This document shows positions 12,831 through 25,747 of a stretch of 39,536 bases of DNA, one piece after another. The notes beneath the pieces are model-generated. The model made no database searches. It had not been told where the DNA came from and was given only the letters and a program-made list of their open reading frames with translations. Position 1 is the stretch's first letter; every line of letters begins with the position of its first letter. The stretch is from a virus. The translations under genes and the position numbers were made by a program. The DNA is taken from positions 1 through 39,536 of IMG/VR virus record IMGVR_UViG_3300022752_000168; one strand, given 5' to 3'.

Positions 12831-13093
12831 CGCTCCCACCCAGCTACACGCGCTTCGCGCTCATCGCCGCAATCAATGCGTACCGCGACCACCTCGAGCG
12901 TGAGCCCGAGGCTGATGTCGCCCTGCGCCTGCAACGCCTGCTGCTGGAAGCCCAGGCGGAACTCTCACACCTTGAAGGGTTGACCAATGGCAAATCTGTG
13001 GACGGACGAAGCGTCGGACTTGGCGGCGAGCCTGTGGCGCGAGGGGTTTTCCGGCGGTCAAATCGCCAGCGCTTTGGGCGCGCACGGGGTTAA
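12827..13093 (+). CDS. Hypothetical early protein, 3' end overlapping the gcrA-like gene
   Basis: The ATG overlaps the cro-like stop (ATGA). The 88-residue product begins with a helical region (YTRFALIAAINAYRDHLEREPEADVALRLQRLLLEAQ) of unknown family. Its frame does not close until 13093, 107 bases inside the next gene, and the last 30 or so residues (SVDGRSVGLGGEPVARG...) look like out-of-frame reading of that gene. Either the overlap is real or the original stop near 12990 has been lost by an indel. Confidence 0.5.
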   Translation: MTLPPSYTRFALIAAINAYRDHLEREPEADVALRLQRLLLEAQAELSHLEGLTNGKSVDGRSVGLGGEPVARGVFRRSNRQRFGRARG

Positions 13094-13475
13094 GGTTAGC
13101 CGCAACAGCGTACTTGGTAAGCTGTTTCGCATGGGCCTTGTGGGCGCCAGCACGATCACGCGCAACACGTCGCTGGTCAGCAAGCGCAACGGACGGATGC
13201 GGGCGCAGGCCAAGGAATTGCGCAAGCTGGTCGCCTGCGAGAAGCCGCGGGCGGCGACGGTGAAGGCCAAGCCGCAAGCGGTGCGTCCCTCTGTTGAGGT
13301 CGACCCGCTTAACGTCCCGCTCCTCGAGCTGCAGGCGTTCCAATGCCGCGCGGTCACGGACCCTACGCGCTTTGCCCAGCGCTTCTGCGGGCACATGCGC
13401 GTCGAAGGCCGCGCCTGGTGTGCGGCGCACACGGCGGCGTTCGTGGCGGTCAGTGAGCAAGGGAGGGCGGCATGA
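12987..13475 (+). CDS. GcrA-like cell-cycle regulator homologue
   Basis: The N-terminus (WTDEASDLAASLWREGFSGG, then VSRNSVLGKLFRMGL at about 37-51) matches the GcrA DNA-binding helix-turn-helix. The C-terminal region has CRAVTDP...FCGH...WCAAH (Cys120, Cys134, Cys145, His148), like the GcrA end that contacts sigma-70. In alphaproteobacteria GcrA joins the housekeeping holoenzyme and activates promoters with GANTC sites methylated by CcrM. The phage copy has 162 residues, similar to cellular GcrA, with a longer basic linker. It sits early in the rightward operon, so it could steer host polymerase or tie phage genes to the cell cycle. No CcrM-like methylase is in the window. Confidence 0.75.
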   Translation: MANLWTDEASDLAASLWREGFSGGQIASALGAHGVKVSRNSVLGKLFRMGLVGASTITRNTSLVSKRNGRMRAQAKELRKLVACEKPRAATVKAKPQAVRPSVEVDPLNVPLLELQAFQCRAVTDPTRFAQRFCGHMRVEGRAWCAAHTAAFVAVSEQGRAA

Positions 13476-14047
13476 AGGAGCCTTGCTACACATCGCGCAT
13501 CGTCACGGTGCGCCACACGTTCGCGGACGGGACGGTGCACTTCCGCAAGGGCTGCGCTTACTGCCGCAGCTTTGACTCGGCATGCGTCCCGAAGGCCTCG
13601 GTGACGGCGGAAGACCTCGCAGAAGCGTTTGACAAATCGTCCAACAATGATGCGCGCGACGCTGAATGCCCTGACATCATCGAAGCGCGCGAGGCTCGTA
13701 TCGCGGAACTGCGGGCATTCAGAAGTCTGCCGGCAGACGAACAAGCGGCCGCATATGAGGTTGGGCGCGTTAGCCGGTACGAAGACCCATCCTGGCGCCC
13801 GTTGCGCGAAGAGGTTTTGCGTCGAGCAGGGGCTAAGCCGCCTTTTGTTTTTGCGGTCTGCCAAATCGGCGTCATTCGCGCCGGCCTAGAATGCGGGCGC
13901 GCCGCCTGCGAGGCGCACCACCTGCACTACAACACGTTTTGGAACGAAAGCCCGGAAGACCTTGTAGCGCTGTGCGCTGAATGTCACCACGCTGAAACGA
14001 AATACACGCGGCGCAACGGCTCATCGCCCCGGATCGTGGGGCTGTGA
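13472..14047 (+). CDS. HNH-family nuclease-like protein
   Basis: The C-terminal half has CEAHHLHYNTFWNESPEDL followed by VALCAECHHAETKY (about 146-178), the ...HH..Y...ENP.DL..LC..CH arrangement of HNH nucleases, with His149/150, Asn158 and His172/173 as likely metal and catalytic residues. A CAYC...C cluster near the N-terminus (about 28-38) may bind another zinc. The middle (45-110) is a charged helix. It overlaps its neighbours by 4 bases on both sides, so it is an integral operon member rather than an obvious homing insertion, and may serve replication or recombination. Confidence 0.65.
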   Translation: MKEPCYTSRIVTVRHTFADGTVHFRKGCAYCRSFDSACVPKASVTAEDLAEAFDKSSNNDARDAECPDIIEAREARIAELRAFRSLPADEQAAAYEVGRVSRYEDPSWRPLREEVLRRAGAKPPFVFAVCQIGVIRAGLECGRAACEAHHLHYNTFWNESPEDLVALCAECHHAETKYTRRNGSSPRIVGL

Positions 14048-15861
14048 CCATGGGCCTTTTTGCCGGCCTCCCCGCCGACCCCAAGCAATGCGCGCTGGAA
14101 TACGCTAGGCGGGGCATCCCCGTGTTTCCGTGTGCGCACACGAAGCAGCCTCTCATCAAGACCGGCTTCAAGGCCGCGACCACGGATCCGATTCAGATCA
14201 ACAAGTGGTTTTCGTCTTGGCCCCGCGCGCTGATCGGTATCCCGACCGGGCCTGCGTCGGGTTACATGGTCCACGATCTCGACGCCAAATCCTGCGACGT
14301 CGAGATGGCGCTCGCCGAGCTGGAGGCGGATTACGGGCCGATCATCGGTCCCTTGGTCCGCACCATGTCGGGCGGGTTTCACGTCTGGACGCGCTGGGTC
14401 GATGGCATCCGCAACAGCGCCAGCAAGCTGCGCCCCGGCTATGACGTTCGCGGGGAGGGCGGTTACGCCATCGCGCCCGGCTCAATGGGCTATCAGCTTA
14501 TTCGCGACGTTGAGCCTGGCGAGCCGCCCGCGGGGCTGATCGCCGCCCTGCGCAGTCTTGCGGGCAAGCCCGCCCTCGCCGTTGTCGGCGGGACTCAAAG
14601 CGGCTTAGTCCTTAGCGTGCCGCAGACGCTCGAACAGCAGATTGAATCCGCCATGACGGAGGGGTCGCGCCATGACGCGACCGTCCGTCTTGTTTGGTCT
14701 CTGGTCAAACGCGGCATGTCCCTAGACGAGGTTATGGCGTTCGCGCCCTTCCTCGGTCGGTCCAACGGCTGGTCGATGGAGGAGGCCCAGAACGAAGTCT
14801 ACAAGGCCGCAAAGTCAGCCTTTGAGAAGCAGGGGCTTGCGGCAACCGGCAAGGCCGAGCCGCAGCCGATCCAGATTTACAGCCTGCAGCAACTGCAAAG
14901 CCGCGATCCGCCTGATTGGCAAATTGACGGCGCAGTTCCTGAAGGCGGTCTTTCGGTTCTGTTCGGCGACAGCGCGACGTTCAAGACGTTCGTCACGCTC
15001 GATATGGCGCTGTCGATTGCTTACGGCGTGCCGTGGCAGGGTCGGGCGGTCAAGCAAGGGCCAGTCATTTACGTTCTCGGCGAGGGCCAAGGCGGCTTCG
15101 CCAACCGCGTGCAAGCCTGGCGTGAGGCTCACGGCCTCGCTGATGTAGACGCCCCGTTCTTCACGATCCTGCAGCCGGTGCCGTTCGGAGACTTCAAGGC
15201 CGTCGCCCTGCTCGTCAAGGCGATCGAGGCGACGGGCGTCAAGCCCGTGCTGGTCATCATCGACACCCTGGCTCGGAATTTCGGCGGCGGCGATCCCGAC
15301 AAGACGCAGGACATGACGACGTTCGTGACCGGCCTTGATGCCGTCCGTCACCAGTTCAGCACGGGCGTGTTCGTCGTCCACCATAGCGGCAAGGACAGCG
15401 CCAAGGGCGCGCGCAACTCGTCCGTGCTGCGCGCTGCCGTCGATTGCGAGATCCGCGCTGAGCGCGAAGAGGGCGCCCAGCGGGTCAAGCTGACCAACAC
15501 CAAACAGAAAGAGGGCGAGGAGTTCCGCCCCCTCTGGGTGTCGGTTGAGCCCATCGAAATCATCGACGGGCGCACTGGCGAGGTCGTCAAATCGCTTGCC
15601 GTGAAGTCTGACAGCGCCACGAACGCAGGCGTTGAGATGAAGTCCAGCCGCATCGGCAAGGTCGAAAAATGGATCATCGAAACCCTTGCTGATGCGGGCA
15701 CTCTGACCATGCCTGAACTTGTTTCAAGGGGGTCAGATCACAACCGTCAGAACCTCTACAGGACGGTAAACACGCTTACAGAGAAGGGCATCGTGTGCCG
15801 TGACGACGGACCCCCTGTCGTCATTTGGTTAGCCGATCAATATCAACATGATGAGGGCTGA
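14044..15861 (+). CDS. PrimPol-helicase fusion (replicative primase/helicase)
   Basis: Residues about 10-165 form a PrimPol domain with MVHDLDAKS (acidic Asp78/Asp80), SGGFHVW (His113) and YDVRGEGGYAIAPGS. Residues about 295-500 form a RecA-like AAA helicase with a Walker A variant GDSATFKT (308-315), in which the second Gly is Phe, and Walker B VLVIIDT (402-408). Residues 545-600 resemble a winged helix. Such fusions prime and unwind at phage and plasmid origins. The start is GTG at 14044 (overlapping the previous stop) or ATG at 14050. It ends at the repeat-rich candidate origin, two copies of whose motif lie in its last codons. Confidence 0.85.
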   Translation: MTMGLFAGLPADPKQCALEYARRGIPVFPCAHTKQPLIKTGFKAATTDPIQINKWFSSWPRALIGIPTGPASGYMVHDLDAKSCDVEMALAELEADYGPIIGPLVRTMSGGFHVWTRWVDGIRNSASKLRPGYDVRGEGGYAIAPGSMGYQLIRDVEPGEPPAGLIAALRSLAGKPALAVVGGTQSGLVLSVPQTLEQQIESAMTEGSRHDATVRLVWSLVKRGMSLDEVMAFAPFLGRSNGWSMEEAQNEVYKAAKSAFEKQGLAATGKAEPQPIQIYSLQQLQSRDPPDWQIDGAVPEGGLSVLFGDSATFKTFVTLDMALSIAYGVPWQGRAVKQGPVIYVLGEGQGGFANRVQAWREAHGLADVDAPFFTILQPVPFGDFKAVALLVKAIEATGVKPVLVIIDTLARNFGGGDPDKTQDMTTFVTGLDAVRHQFSTGVFVVHHSGKDSAKGARNSSVLRAAVDCEIRAEREEGAQRVKLTNTKQKEGEEFRPLWVSVEPIEIIDGRTGEVVKSLAVKSDSATNAGVEMKSSRIGKVEKWIIETLADAGTLTMPELVSRGSDHNRQNLYRTVNTLTEKGIVCRDDGPPVVIWLADQYQHDEG

Positions 15862-15953
15862 AATGACGACAAATGACGACACTGACGACAAGGCGGTGAC
15901 GACGTGTCGTCACTTGTCGTCACTTCCTATAAGAAGTGACGACAATGACGACA
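15801..15953. repeat. TGACGAC iteron-like array with a long hairpin, candidate replication origin
   Basis: TGACGAC(A/G) occurs in forward orientation at 15801, 15864, 15874, 15883, 15897, 15937 and 15946, and inverted (TGTCGTCA) at 15816, 15905 and 15915: ten copies in 153 bases. The inverted pair and the last two direct copies form a hairpin: TGTCGTCA, one bulged C, then a 13-base arm (15914-15926), loop CTATAA and matching arms to 15953, 21 base pairs in all. No T-run follows. Repeats plus a strong hairpin beside the PrimPol-helicase gene suggest an origin; an RNA or protein-binding regulatory element is the alternative. Confidence 0.6.
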
Positions 15954-15976
15954 GCGGAGGGGGCGACAGCCAATGA
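15863..15976 (+). CDS. Possible 37-residue peptide encoded across the repeat array
   Basis: An open frame starts with ATG one base after the helicase stop and ends with TGA overlapping the next ATG (ATGA), exactly bridging two genes as in the rest of the operon. Its product is low-complexity (Asp, Thr, Ser, Asn and Gly) because it is made of the TGACGAC repeats. A GAGGGC precedes the start. It may be translated merely to couple its neighbours, or be an accident of the repeat. Confidence 0.25.
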   Translation: MTTNDDTDDKAVTTCRHLSSLPIRSDDNDDSGGGDSQ

Positions 15977-16365
15977 CCCTCCGCCCTCGCTCCAAATACA
16001 ACGCCCGCCGCGTCACCATCGACGGCGTCACCTTTGACAGCGTCGGCGAGGCCAACCGCTGGCGACAGCTCAAACTGCTGCAGCGGGCGGGGGTCATCAA
16101 AGGGCTCGGCGAGCCGCACCCGTCATTTCCGATCGTCCTCAACGGGACCACCGTCTGCACGGTCGAGATGGACTTTGCATATTCGGAAAACGGACAGGCC
16201 TGCGTCGAAGATTACAAGGGCCGCGACCTCCCCATGTCCCGGCTCAAGCGCAAGCTGCTCGCTGCGGCTTATCCGCACCTGACCATCATCGTGACGGGGC
16301 CAGGCGCACCCAAGCCCCGCAAACCACGCAAGGCTGCTGGCAAGGCGAAGGGGGTGGCGCGATGA
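15973..16365 (+). CDS. DUF1064-type predicted nuclease
   Basis: The 130-residue protein matches the DUF1064 pattern: RSKYNARRVTIDGVTFDSVGEANRWRQLKLLQRAG is its opening, then EMDFAYSENG.ACVEDYKGRD (Asp and Glu-Asp-x-Lys, a PD-(D/E)xK-like core) and LKRKLL. The family is predicted to be a phage nuclease, perhaps resolving Holliday junctions. It lies 20 bases after the origin hairpin and beside replication genes, which fits resolution of replication or recombination intermediates. The basic C-terminal tail (KPRKPRKAAGKAKG) would bind DNA. Confidence 0.75.
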   Translation: MTLRPRSKYNARRVTIDGVTFDSVGEANRWRQLKLLQRAGVIKGLGEPHPSFPIVLNGTTVCTVEMDFAYSENGQACVEDYKGRDLPMSRLKRKLLAAAYPHLTIIVTGPGAPKPRKPRKAAGKAKGVAR

Positions 16366-23442: not shown

Positions 23443-25747
23443 CTCTAGTTACGCCCAGTTCGGCAGTCAGGCCGAACGTGAGGCCGAATTGCTCCGACTG
23501 CTGAAGGGCGAAGAGAACGACGCCCTCGGCTATCGTCAGAGCGAGTTGCAGCAGCAGCAGATCGATGCGCTGAAGCACTTCTTTGGCGAGCGCTATGGCG
23601 ACGAGGAAGACGGACGCTCGCAGGTCGTCACCCGTGAGGTTTTTGAGGTCATCGAGTGGACCATTCCTGACCTCATGCGCGTATTTGCCGGCGGCAATAA
23701 CGTCGTCTACCTCGAAGAGACGAGCCAGCAGGATGCGAAGTTCGCGCGGGATGCGGCGGACTACCTCAATTGGATCTTCTACACCGACAACTTCGGCTAC
23801 GAGCTGCTGCACGACTTTGCGTTCGACGGCCTGTTGAACCGTCGCGGCTTCCTGGCCTGCTACTGGCGCGAGAAGGAATATTACGCGCCGGAGACCCTGA
23901 CGGGCCTCAACATGCCGCAGGTGCAGCAGATCGCGAACGATCCGAACCTGGAGATCGTCGGCCAGGATTTCGACCAAGAGACCGACGCGGGCGGCATCAC
24001 GCTACAGGTGCGGCGCGTCAAGGCGTGCGCGCGGGTCGAGATCACGGGCGTCGCGCCGGAAGACATGCGGCTGAACGGCCGCGCCGTTGACATCGATAAT
24101 GCGCGATATGTGGGGCGTGTCGTCCGTATGCTGCGCGGCGAGGTCGCGGCGATGTGGCCGGACAAGGCCGAGCAGATCCGCGCGTACAGCGGCAGCGCAG
24201 TCAGCGGGCCGCAGAACATCCGCCGCGGGTCTGACGTGCGTATGGTCCGCTTCAATGACCAAAGCGACGACTGGCAGGCAACGGGCAACAATCCGGCGCA
24301 GCAGCTCGAGCTGCTTGAGGAGTACCTGCGCGTTGACCTCAACGGCGACGGCTACCCGGAACTGATCCGGTCCTACCGCGTCGGCGACCTGATCCTGGAA
24401 GAGTCCGAGGTCAACGAAAATCCGTTCGGCTCGTGGACCCCGATCCGCGTGCCGCACCGCTTCTACGGCCTGTCGATGCACGACATCACGGCGGACCTGC
24501 AGCGGCGCTCGACCGTGCTGACGCGCGCGGCGCTCGACGCGGTCTATCAGAGCGTGATCAACCGCGAGGCGTTTGACCGCAACCGCGTGAACGTCGATGC
24601 GCTGCTTGCCACCTACGCCGGCGCGAAGATCCCCGTGGACGGCGATCCTGGCAGCGCGATCATGCCGCTGACGGGCGGGCTGGATACGGCCAAAACCGCA
24701 TGGGACGCGCTCAATCAGTTGACCGCGACCTTGGAGAACCGCACCGGCGCCACGCGCCAGACGCAGGGCGTGGACCCTGACGCGCTGCTCAAGGGCGCGC
24801 ACTCAGGCAAGGCGATCGACCTCCTGCAGACCGCAGGCGCGGCGCGCAAAGAGGTGATGGCGCGCAACATGGCCGCGGGCCTTGAGCGCTTCTTCGCCAA
24901 GCTCTACCGCCTGGTGTGCCGTCATCAGAACGAGCCCATCCAGACGCGTGTGGGCGGCAAGTATGCGCAGTTCGATCCGCGTGAGTGGAACCAGAACCTG
25001 CGCGTGCATATCCACACCGGCACGGGCACGGGCAATCGTGACCAGACCGTTGCGGGGCTCAACCTGATTGGCCAGGCCATGCAGGGCATGGTGGAGATGG
25101 TGGGGCCGGACAATCCGGTGATCACGACGGAACATCGCTATCGCTGGTTCGAGGAACTGTGCCGCGCGCTGGGCTATCGCTCAGCCGAGCCGTTCGCTGC
25201 CGAGCCGCCTGAAGTGCCCGTGCAGGGGCCAAACGGGCAGCCGGAGATCAATTCGGAGACAGGACAACCGGCCACCAAGCCGTGGTCGCCGCCGCCCAAG
25301 CCTGACCCTGCGCAGATGAAGGTGCAGGCCGACATGCAGGCCACGCAGGCGAAGATGCAGACCGACACGCAGATGGCGCAACTCAAGCACGGGCTTGAGC
25401 AGCAGAAGGCGCAGATCGACGTGCAGATGCAGGAGCGCCGCGCGCAGGCTGACATGGAGATTGCGCGCTACAAGGCCGAGCTTGACGCGCAACTGGCGCG
25501 CGACAAAGCGGCGGCCGAGGCGGACCTCGCGCGAGAGAAGTCCGCGCAGGAATTGCAACTGGCGTACGCCAAGCTCGAGGCTGAGACGCAACTCGCTCGC
25601 GAGAAGATGCAGATCGAGGCTGAGGTTGCGCGCCAGAGCGCGAAGCTGAACGCCAAGGCCAAGGCGTCCGCGAACGGCGCCGACATCGGCGACGACGATG
25701 ACGACGCCTTGCCGTCGTACCGATCGGGCGGCGCTTTGGATGAGTGA
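23432..25747 (+). CDS. Portal protein (P22-like)
   Basis: The 771-residue protein matches large P22-type portals: an N-terminal region with EVFEVIEWTIPDLMRVFAGG, NWIFYTDNFGYELLHDFAFDG and LLNRRGFLACYW, a central clip/stem region, and VPHRFYGLSMHDITADLQ around residue 350. A C-terminal run of some 130 residues (about 625-745) is a continuous Gln/Ala/Lys/Glu helix, like the barrel of P22 portal that extends into the head. Twelve copies form the DNA gate at one vertex, docking the terminase and later the adaptor. It is preceded by head proteins and followed by the scaffold. Confidence 0.9.
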   Translation: MADSSSYAQFGSQAEREAELLRLLKGEENDALGYRQSELQQQQIDALKHFFGERYGDEEDGRSQVVTREVFEVIEWTIPDLMRVFAGGNNVVYLEETSQQDAKFARDAADYLNWIFYTDNFGYELLHDFAFDGLLNRRGFLACYWREKEYYAPETLTGLNMPQVQQIANDPNLEIVGQDFDQETDAGGITLQVRRVKACARVEITGVAPEDMRLNGRAVDIDNARYVGRVVRMLRGEVAAMWPDKAEQIRAYSGSAVSGPQNIRRGSDVRMVRFNDQSDDWQATGNNPAQQLELLEEYLRVDLNGDGYPELIRSYRVGDLILEESEVNENPFGSWTPIRVPHRFYGLSMHDITADLQRRSTVLTRAALDAVYQSVINREAFDRNRVNVDALLATYAGAKIPVDGDPGSAIMPLTGGLDTAKTAWDALNQLTATLENRTGATRQTQGVDPDALLKGAHSGKAIDLLQTAGAARKEVMARNMAAGLERFFAKLYRLVCRHQNEPIQTRVGGKYAQFDPREWNQNLRVHIHTGTGTGNRDQTVAGLNLIGQAMQGMVEMVGPDNPVITTEHRYRWFEELCRALGYRSAEPFAAEPPEVPVQGPNGQPEINSETGQPATKPWSPPPKPDPAQMKVQADMQATQAKMQTDTQMAQLKHGLEQQKAQIDVQMQERRAQADMEIARYKAELDAQLARDKAAAEADLAREKSAQELQLAYAKLEAETQLAREKMQIEAEVARQSAKLNAKAKASANGADIGDDDDDALPSYRSGGALDE

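Follow-up and report, generated by a model that had tools for sequence, protein, structure and literature searches.

The origins of the PICI/SaPI elements SaPIbov1 and EcCICFT073 lie directly 3' of rep and carry short iterons in two sets (PMC6092414), and these iterons are read by the C-terminal domain of Rep, a self-loading helicase (PMC7581432). In pRN1, PrimPol, helicase and winged helix are combined in one protein, ORF904, and an essential stem-loop is located directly behind orf904 (PMC4234260). At oriV of RSF1010, RepC binds the iterons, RepA unwinds the DNA and RepB' primes at the hairpins that are exposed (PMC4234260).

In this study, we analysed a repeat array in a stretch of DNA, referred to as the window, which covers all 39,536 bases of one virus record (IMG/VR record IMGVR_UViG_3300022752_000168) and contains the temperate phage genes integrase, S24-type repressor, terminase, portal, scaffold and major head protein. 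Because the position and make-up of the array match those of known origins, we consider it very likely to be the replication origin of this phage, with the helicase encoded just before it as the initiator. The array is best read as a putative binding site of the helicase's own winged-helix tail, which agrees with the first-pass reading of a candidate origin probably bound by the helicase or another replication protein. The features of the locus are as follows.

14044-15861, plus strand: gene of a PrimPol / RSF1010-RepA-type helicase / winged-helix protein, 605 aa, the proposed initiator
15619-15858, plus strand: C-terminal winged helix, about aa 526-605, the proposed reader of the array (H-E-H-H-E-E, two models)
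15801-15823, no strand assigned: inverted repeat pair within the gene (15801 plus, 15817 minus), in the last helicase codons
15823-15863, no strand assigned: AT-rich stretch (61% AT), candidate melting region
15864-15903, plus strand: four direct repeat copies (15864, 15874, 15883, 15897) at spacings of 10, 9 and 14
15889-15894 (approximate), plus strand: AAGGCG core word between repeats, overlapping the end of the third repeat
15905-15953, no strand assigned: hairpin of 8+13 bp with the copies at 15906 (minus), 15916 (minus), 15937 (plus) and 15946 (plus)
15923-15936, no strand assigned: near-palindromic hairpin apex, CTTCCTATAAGAAG
15973-16365, plus strand: DUF1064 / phrog_190 (Holliday junction resolvase) gene (PF06356, 7.5e-14; phrog_190, 7.3e-21)

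The first-pass annotation had claimed ten copies of TGACGAC, seven direct and three inverted, and this proved exact to the base, with the copies spanning 15801-15952. The word is located on the plus strand at 15801, 15864, 15874, 15883, 15897, 15937 and 15946 and on the minus strand at 15817, 15906 and 15916, all exact, and is followed by A in eight copies and by G in two. As had also been claimed, the array starts inside the last helicase codons, with the first two copies in the final codons of the 14044-15861 gene, and it ends 92 nt past the helicase stop. It is the peak of a window-wide scan for clusters of any single 7-mer. When the array's own sequence was dinucleotide-shuffled 2000 times, no shuffle held more than four copies against the ten observed, which excludes chance by a wide margin. 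In the whole window, TGACGAC was observed 30 times against 6.0 expected, and TGACGACA ten times against 1.1 expected, eight of the ten within the array. Neighbouring copies in the main array are mostly 9-14 nt apart, about one helical turn, which is an iteron-like spacing. Between the in-gene pair and the main array, the stretch 15823-15863 is among the most AT-rich 0.17% of the window's 41-nt stretches and is weakly conserved in relatives. Elsewhere in the window there are 20 further copies of TGACGAC, roughly threefold the number expected by chance (those at 25699, 26041 and 27103 among them); several are apparently gene starts reading ATGACGAC, and this excess is probably a start-codon context effect.

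The hairpin also has the form first described for it, with 13 plus 8 bp, one bulged C, a CTATAA loop and four repeat copies. It starts 43 nt past the helicase stop; 15905-15912 pair with 15946-15953 and 15914-15926 with 15933-15945, leaving the bulged C at 15913 and the loop at 15927-15932. Its energy of -22.2 kcal/mol with DNA parameters (z -9.2) was equalled in none of 200 shuffles, and the hairpin of the nearest relative, L003, is of the same design. The hairpin may serve for priming, form a cruciform or simply be the symmetric centre where two assemblies face each other, and the recurrence of its apex among relatives argues that it matters by itself. By eye only, GTG was often seen just 3' of the hairpin centre (L016, L018, L139, L169 and others), and this is partly a product of the repeat words themselves; the pRN1 primase is reported to start at GTG (PMC4234260).

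The 605-aa protein matched the Pfam families Prim-Pol (PF09250, 8.7e-31) and AAA_25 (PF13481, 1.2e-34), and the relatives of its N-terminal PrimPol include 1rni by profile match and 3m1m by fold match. The AlphaFold model (pLDDT 86.9) has high confidence inside all three domains, and the placement of the domains relative to each other is uncertain (pTM 0.51). According to the structure matches, the motor is of the RecA fold and RepA/DnaB-like, with RSF1010 RepA (1g8y) as the best match (Z 23.4, rmsd 2.4 Å, 221 residues). A single-sequence search of the PDB with the protein gave no match, whereas a profile search matched the motor to 1g8y at 1.8e-6. The C-terminal domain, with its winged helix at residues 539-596, matches winged helices of the MarR/HxlR/Zalpha type (Z 10-11), and in the model residues 568-580 are likely to be the recognition helix.

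A search for the same array downstream of homologous helicases had been proposed from the window alone; an array is indeed present there, but its repeat word differs. Counting as an array any 7-mer that occurs five or more times in a cluster, we found arrays at the 3' end of the helicase gene in 66 of 86 non-redundant PrimPol/RepA-type loci; of 1471 control stretches taken from these loci, 6 had one. In several of the remaining loci the arrays are degenerate or displaced. At L163, L176 and L182 an intact array lies 780-950 nt downstream of the helicase, separated from it by extra sequence that is apparently a gene. The word is TGACCCC in L003 (64% identical), AAACGCC in L024 (a Bradyrhizobium-labelled MAG contig) and TTTATAC in Roseobacter phage CRP-831, and further lineages carry TGGGACA, CGTAACA, GGTACCT, TGTCCAA, ACGATAC and others. 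Array position, layout and a TWWA-centred hairpin are largely kept across lineages, whereas the word is not. The common layout comprises direct repeats, often AAGGCR, more repeats, a hairpin with a TWWA apex and inverted repeats. A palindrome centred on YTWWAR is present in 24 of 51 arrays against 0.35% of control stretches, and AAGGCR in 28 of 51 array loci against 21%. By the same measure, no array was found at L206 (AGRM01000003), L207 (Vibrio 1.210.O), L208 (SETP3) or L205 (Caulobacter GB2A), the last three of which have distant RepA-type helicases. In Rhizobium phage 16-3 (L204), 12 copies of CGTGACA follow the p101 helicase gene, a candidate origin in a phage that is in culture and has been studied genetically.

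The word as the conserved feature was tried and rejected: exact TGACGACANTGACGACA was searched in 2.9 million viral contigs, and most contigs with a dense cluster were without a detectable relative of the window helicase, so the word itself is not what is conserved. In one unrelated viral contig (L116, near 5544), a GTCGTCA cluster shortly precedes a frame resembling the start of a DnaB helicase, seemingly the same word reused near another replication gene. The viral contig L049 (12215-12481) carries long head-to-tail GTGACGACA runs in both orientations, with no detectable relative of the window helicase in the stretch examined. DUF1064 as a second search anchor yielded one find, an already known relative.

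A helicase of this kind, followed immediately by an array, is also present in circular phage-like plasmids, for example Methylobacterium currus unnamed4 (word CGCAACA, CTATAG hairpin), pMRAD08, Ca. Promineifilum plasmid III and Caenibius p1. The gene tables of the first three, which are incomplete, name no further replication initiator. In some of these plasmids the primase has a gene of its own, so an array does not depend on fusion to a PrimPol. No description of the array family was found in the open-licence literature.

Like the PICI/SaPI origins, the iteron array is located immediately 3' of the proposed initiator gene (as in the 66 of 86 relatives), and by comparison with Rep, whose C-terminal domain reads the iterons, the winged helix is the predicted reader here. 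In PICI/SaPI origins the two iteron sets flank an AT-rich melting region; the AT-rich 15823-15863 lies between two groups of repeats here, with weak conservation among relatives. In contrast, the motor here is AAA_25 and nearest to RSF1010 RepA, whereas theirs is DUF927 or D5/Primase_Cterm; those elements are satellites, whereas the window is a complete temperate phage with terminase, portal, scaffold and major head protein; and the conserved TWWA-tipped hairpin is a further difference. With pRN1 the locus shares a PrimPol of the ORF904 kind (PF09250, 1rni, 3m1m), a single protein that unites PrimPol, helicase and winged helix, and a stem-loop directly behind the gene, but the motor is SF3 there and RecA-fold here, and descriptions of the pRN1 origin give a stem-loop and no iteron array, whereas ten repeats are present here. 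RSF1010 (IncQ) has the same motor fold (1g8y), with hexameric assembly predicted for the window protein, and the window array likewise combines iterons with a hairpin, but RepA, RepB' and RepC are three separate proteins there and one fused protein here. The repeat length and layout of RSF1010 also differ from those of the window array. The alpha protein of P4 is of the SF3 type, and this one protein serves priming, unwinding and origin recognition at ori/crr, where its C-terminal domain binds iterons. It is mentioned in PMC6092414 and is set beside the window protein, as one protein for these replication roles, by description alone. By analogy, the array would work as the origins of SaPI/PICI, pRN1 and RSF1010 do, but it is a member of none of these families, because each differs from it in at least one of the defining features tested (motor type, fusion or satellite status). 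Here a PrimPol and a winged helix flank an RSF1010-RepA-type motor in one chain, and the locus is classed as a variant within the iteron-origin kind.

The repeat word was found to follow the winged helix. Among 62 loci, similarity of the repeat word is predicted by C-terminal identity over and above the identity of the helicase core (partial Mantel 0.49, 0/2000 permutations), and in a joint regression on five segments (PrimPol, linker, helicase, post-helicase and winged helix) only the winged helix is significantly positive (beta 1.05, 0/1000); both sets of permutations ignore kinship, are not tree-aware, and many loci are related. At a helicase identity of 0.60-0.75, winged-helix identity is 0.72 for same-word pairs versus 0.30 for different-word pairs, and PrimPol identity is 0.67 versus 0.68. 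The helicases of L189 (ACGTAAC) and L179/L190 (GGTACC) are 95-96% identical and their winged-helix regions 62%. Between L189 and L179, DNA identity is 0.79-1.00 upstream, 0.50-0.73 over winged helix and array, and 0.87-0.97 downstream; winged helix and array were exchanged together, and the remaining DNA is about 93% identical. The window and L003 have the same dip in identity over winged helix and array. From these sequence comparisons, winged helix and array appear to behave as one cassette, and the simplest cause of the linked change would be that the winged helix reads the array. Winged helices sharing no more than 11-23% identity can also go with one and the same word (e.g., CGGGACA), and since shared ancestry is uncorrected as well, no readable code is claimed; a protein-to-word code, judged from these pairs, does not appear simple.

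Four alternatives were weighed. The strongest, although unlikely, is that the array is an operator only, with which the helicase or a repressor controls its own operon or the DUF1064 gene while replication starts elsewhere. The array does lie between two co-directional genes, and a repressor and other regulators are encoded nearby. However, it is 3' of the helicase and not at the helicase promoter, ten copies with a conserved-apex hairpin exceed usual operators, the word-tracking domain belongs to the helicase itself, and no sigma-70-like promoter was found in the region, which is a weak test. A partition, packaging or recombination site is less likely still: repeat arrays and hairpins serve these roles too, and winged helices of centromere-binding proteins are among the weak fold matches, but no partition gene was recognised among the scanned ORFs, the integrase is about 7 kb upstream and the large terminase 3.6 kb downstream, and the array accompanies the helicase across phages of different make-up. 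That the hairpin acts as RNA, as a terminator, attenuator or structured leader, is very improbable despite a strong RNA fold (z -6.4). It had been described as not a terminator, and in agreement no T-run follows it and it is absent from the terminator scan list; moreover, there is no Rfam match, the direct repeats lie outside the hairpin yet their word changes along with it, and the array is linked to a DNA-binding domain. It is scarcely credible that the array codes a 37-aa peptide (15863-15976), as the open frame overlaps the start of the DUF1064 gene but its translation is repetitive and Asp/Thr-rich, the array sequence turns over in L003 like non-coding repeats and the inverted copies would be left unexplained; this 37-codon frame through the array is probably due to chance.

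For the array as an origin served by the helicase, we propose a plausible model. By comparison with the systems above, the C-terminal winged helix would bind the TGACGACA repeats, which are mostly about one helical turn apart. As suggested by RSF1010 and SaPI, several bound protomers would then build a RepA-type ring motor on the site. Melting would expose single strands, perhaps at the AT-rich 15823-15863 or through extrusion of the TWWA-tipped hairpin. In the weakest step, the N-terminal PrimPol of the same protein might prime there, possibly at the hairpin, like RepB' at the RSF1010 ssi. GC skew had been proposed as a check on the origin; the skew extreme of the window is not at the array and gives no support, a result counted as uninformative and not as refuting because phage GC skew often fails to mark origins. 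Among four plasmid records the skew was mixed, and two had minima within about 1-3.5 kb of the array.

More tentatively, and with slightly less confidence than an even balance would give, these loci may represent a widespread undescribed class of phage replicon, in which one protein takes the roles of RSF1010 RepB', RepA and RepC, a swappable winged-helix/iteron cassette acts as lock and key and changes specificity as a unit, and the TWWA hairpin is the priming site. If this is true, the cassette would keep related phages that replicate in the same cell from cross-recognition. The array marks a putative origin, from sequence alone, in many uncultured and cultured phages and phage-plasmids. It also provides dozens of natural pairs of a DNA-reading domain and its target word, including near-identical phages differing mainly there, and the joint specificity change of initiator and origin becomes testable by domain swaps. 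If self-replicating, the module would be a small one-gene replicon for alphaproteobacteria.

Of the surrounding genes, the DUF1064 gene behind the array is probably a neighbour that lies outside the origin. A gene of the GcrA cell-cycle-regulator family (PF07750, 5.7e-22) is located at 12987-13475, shortly before the replication genes.
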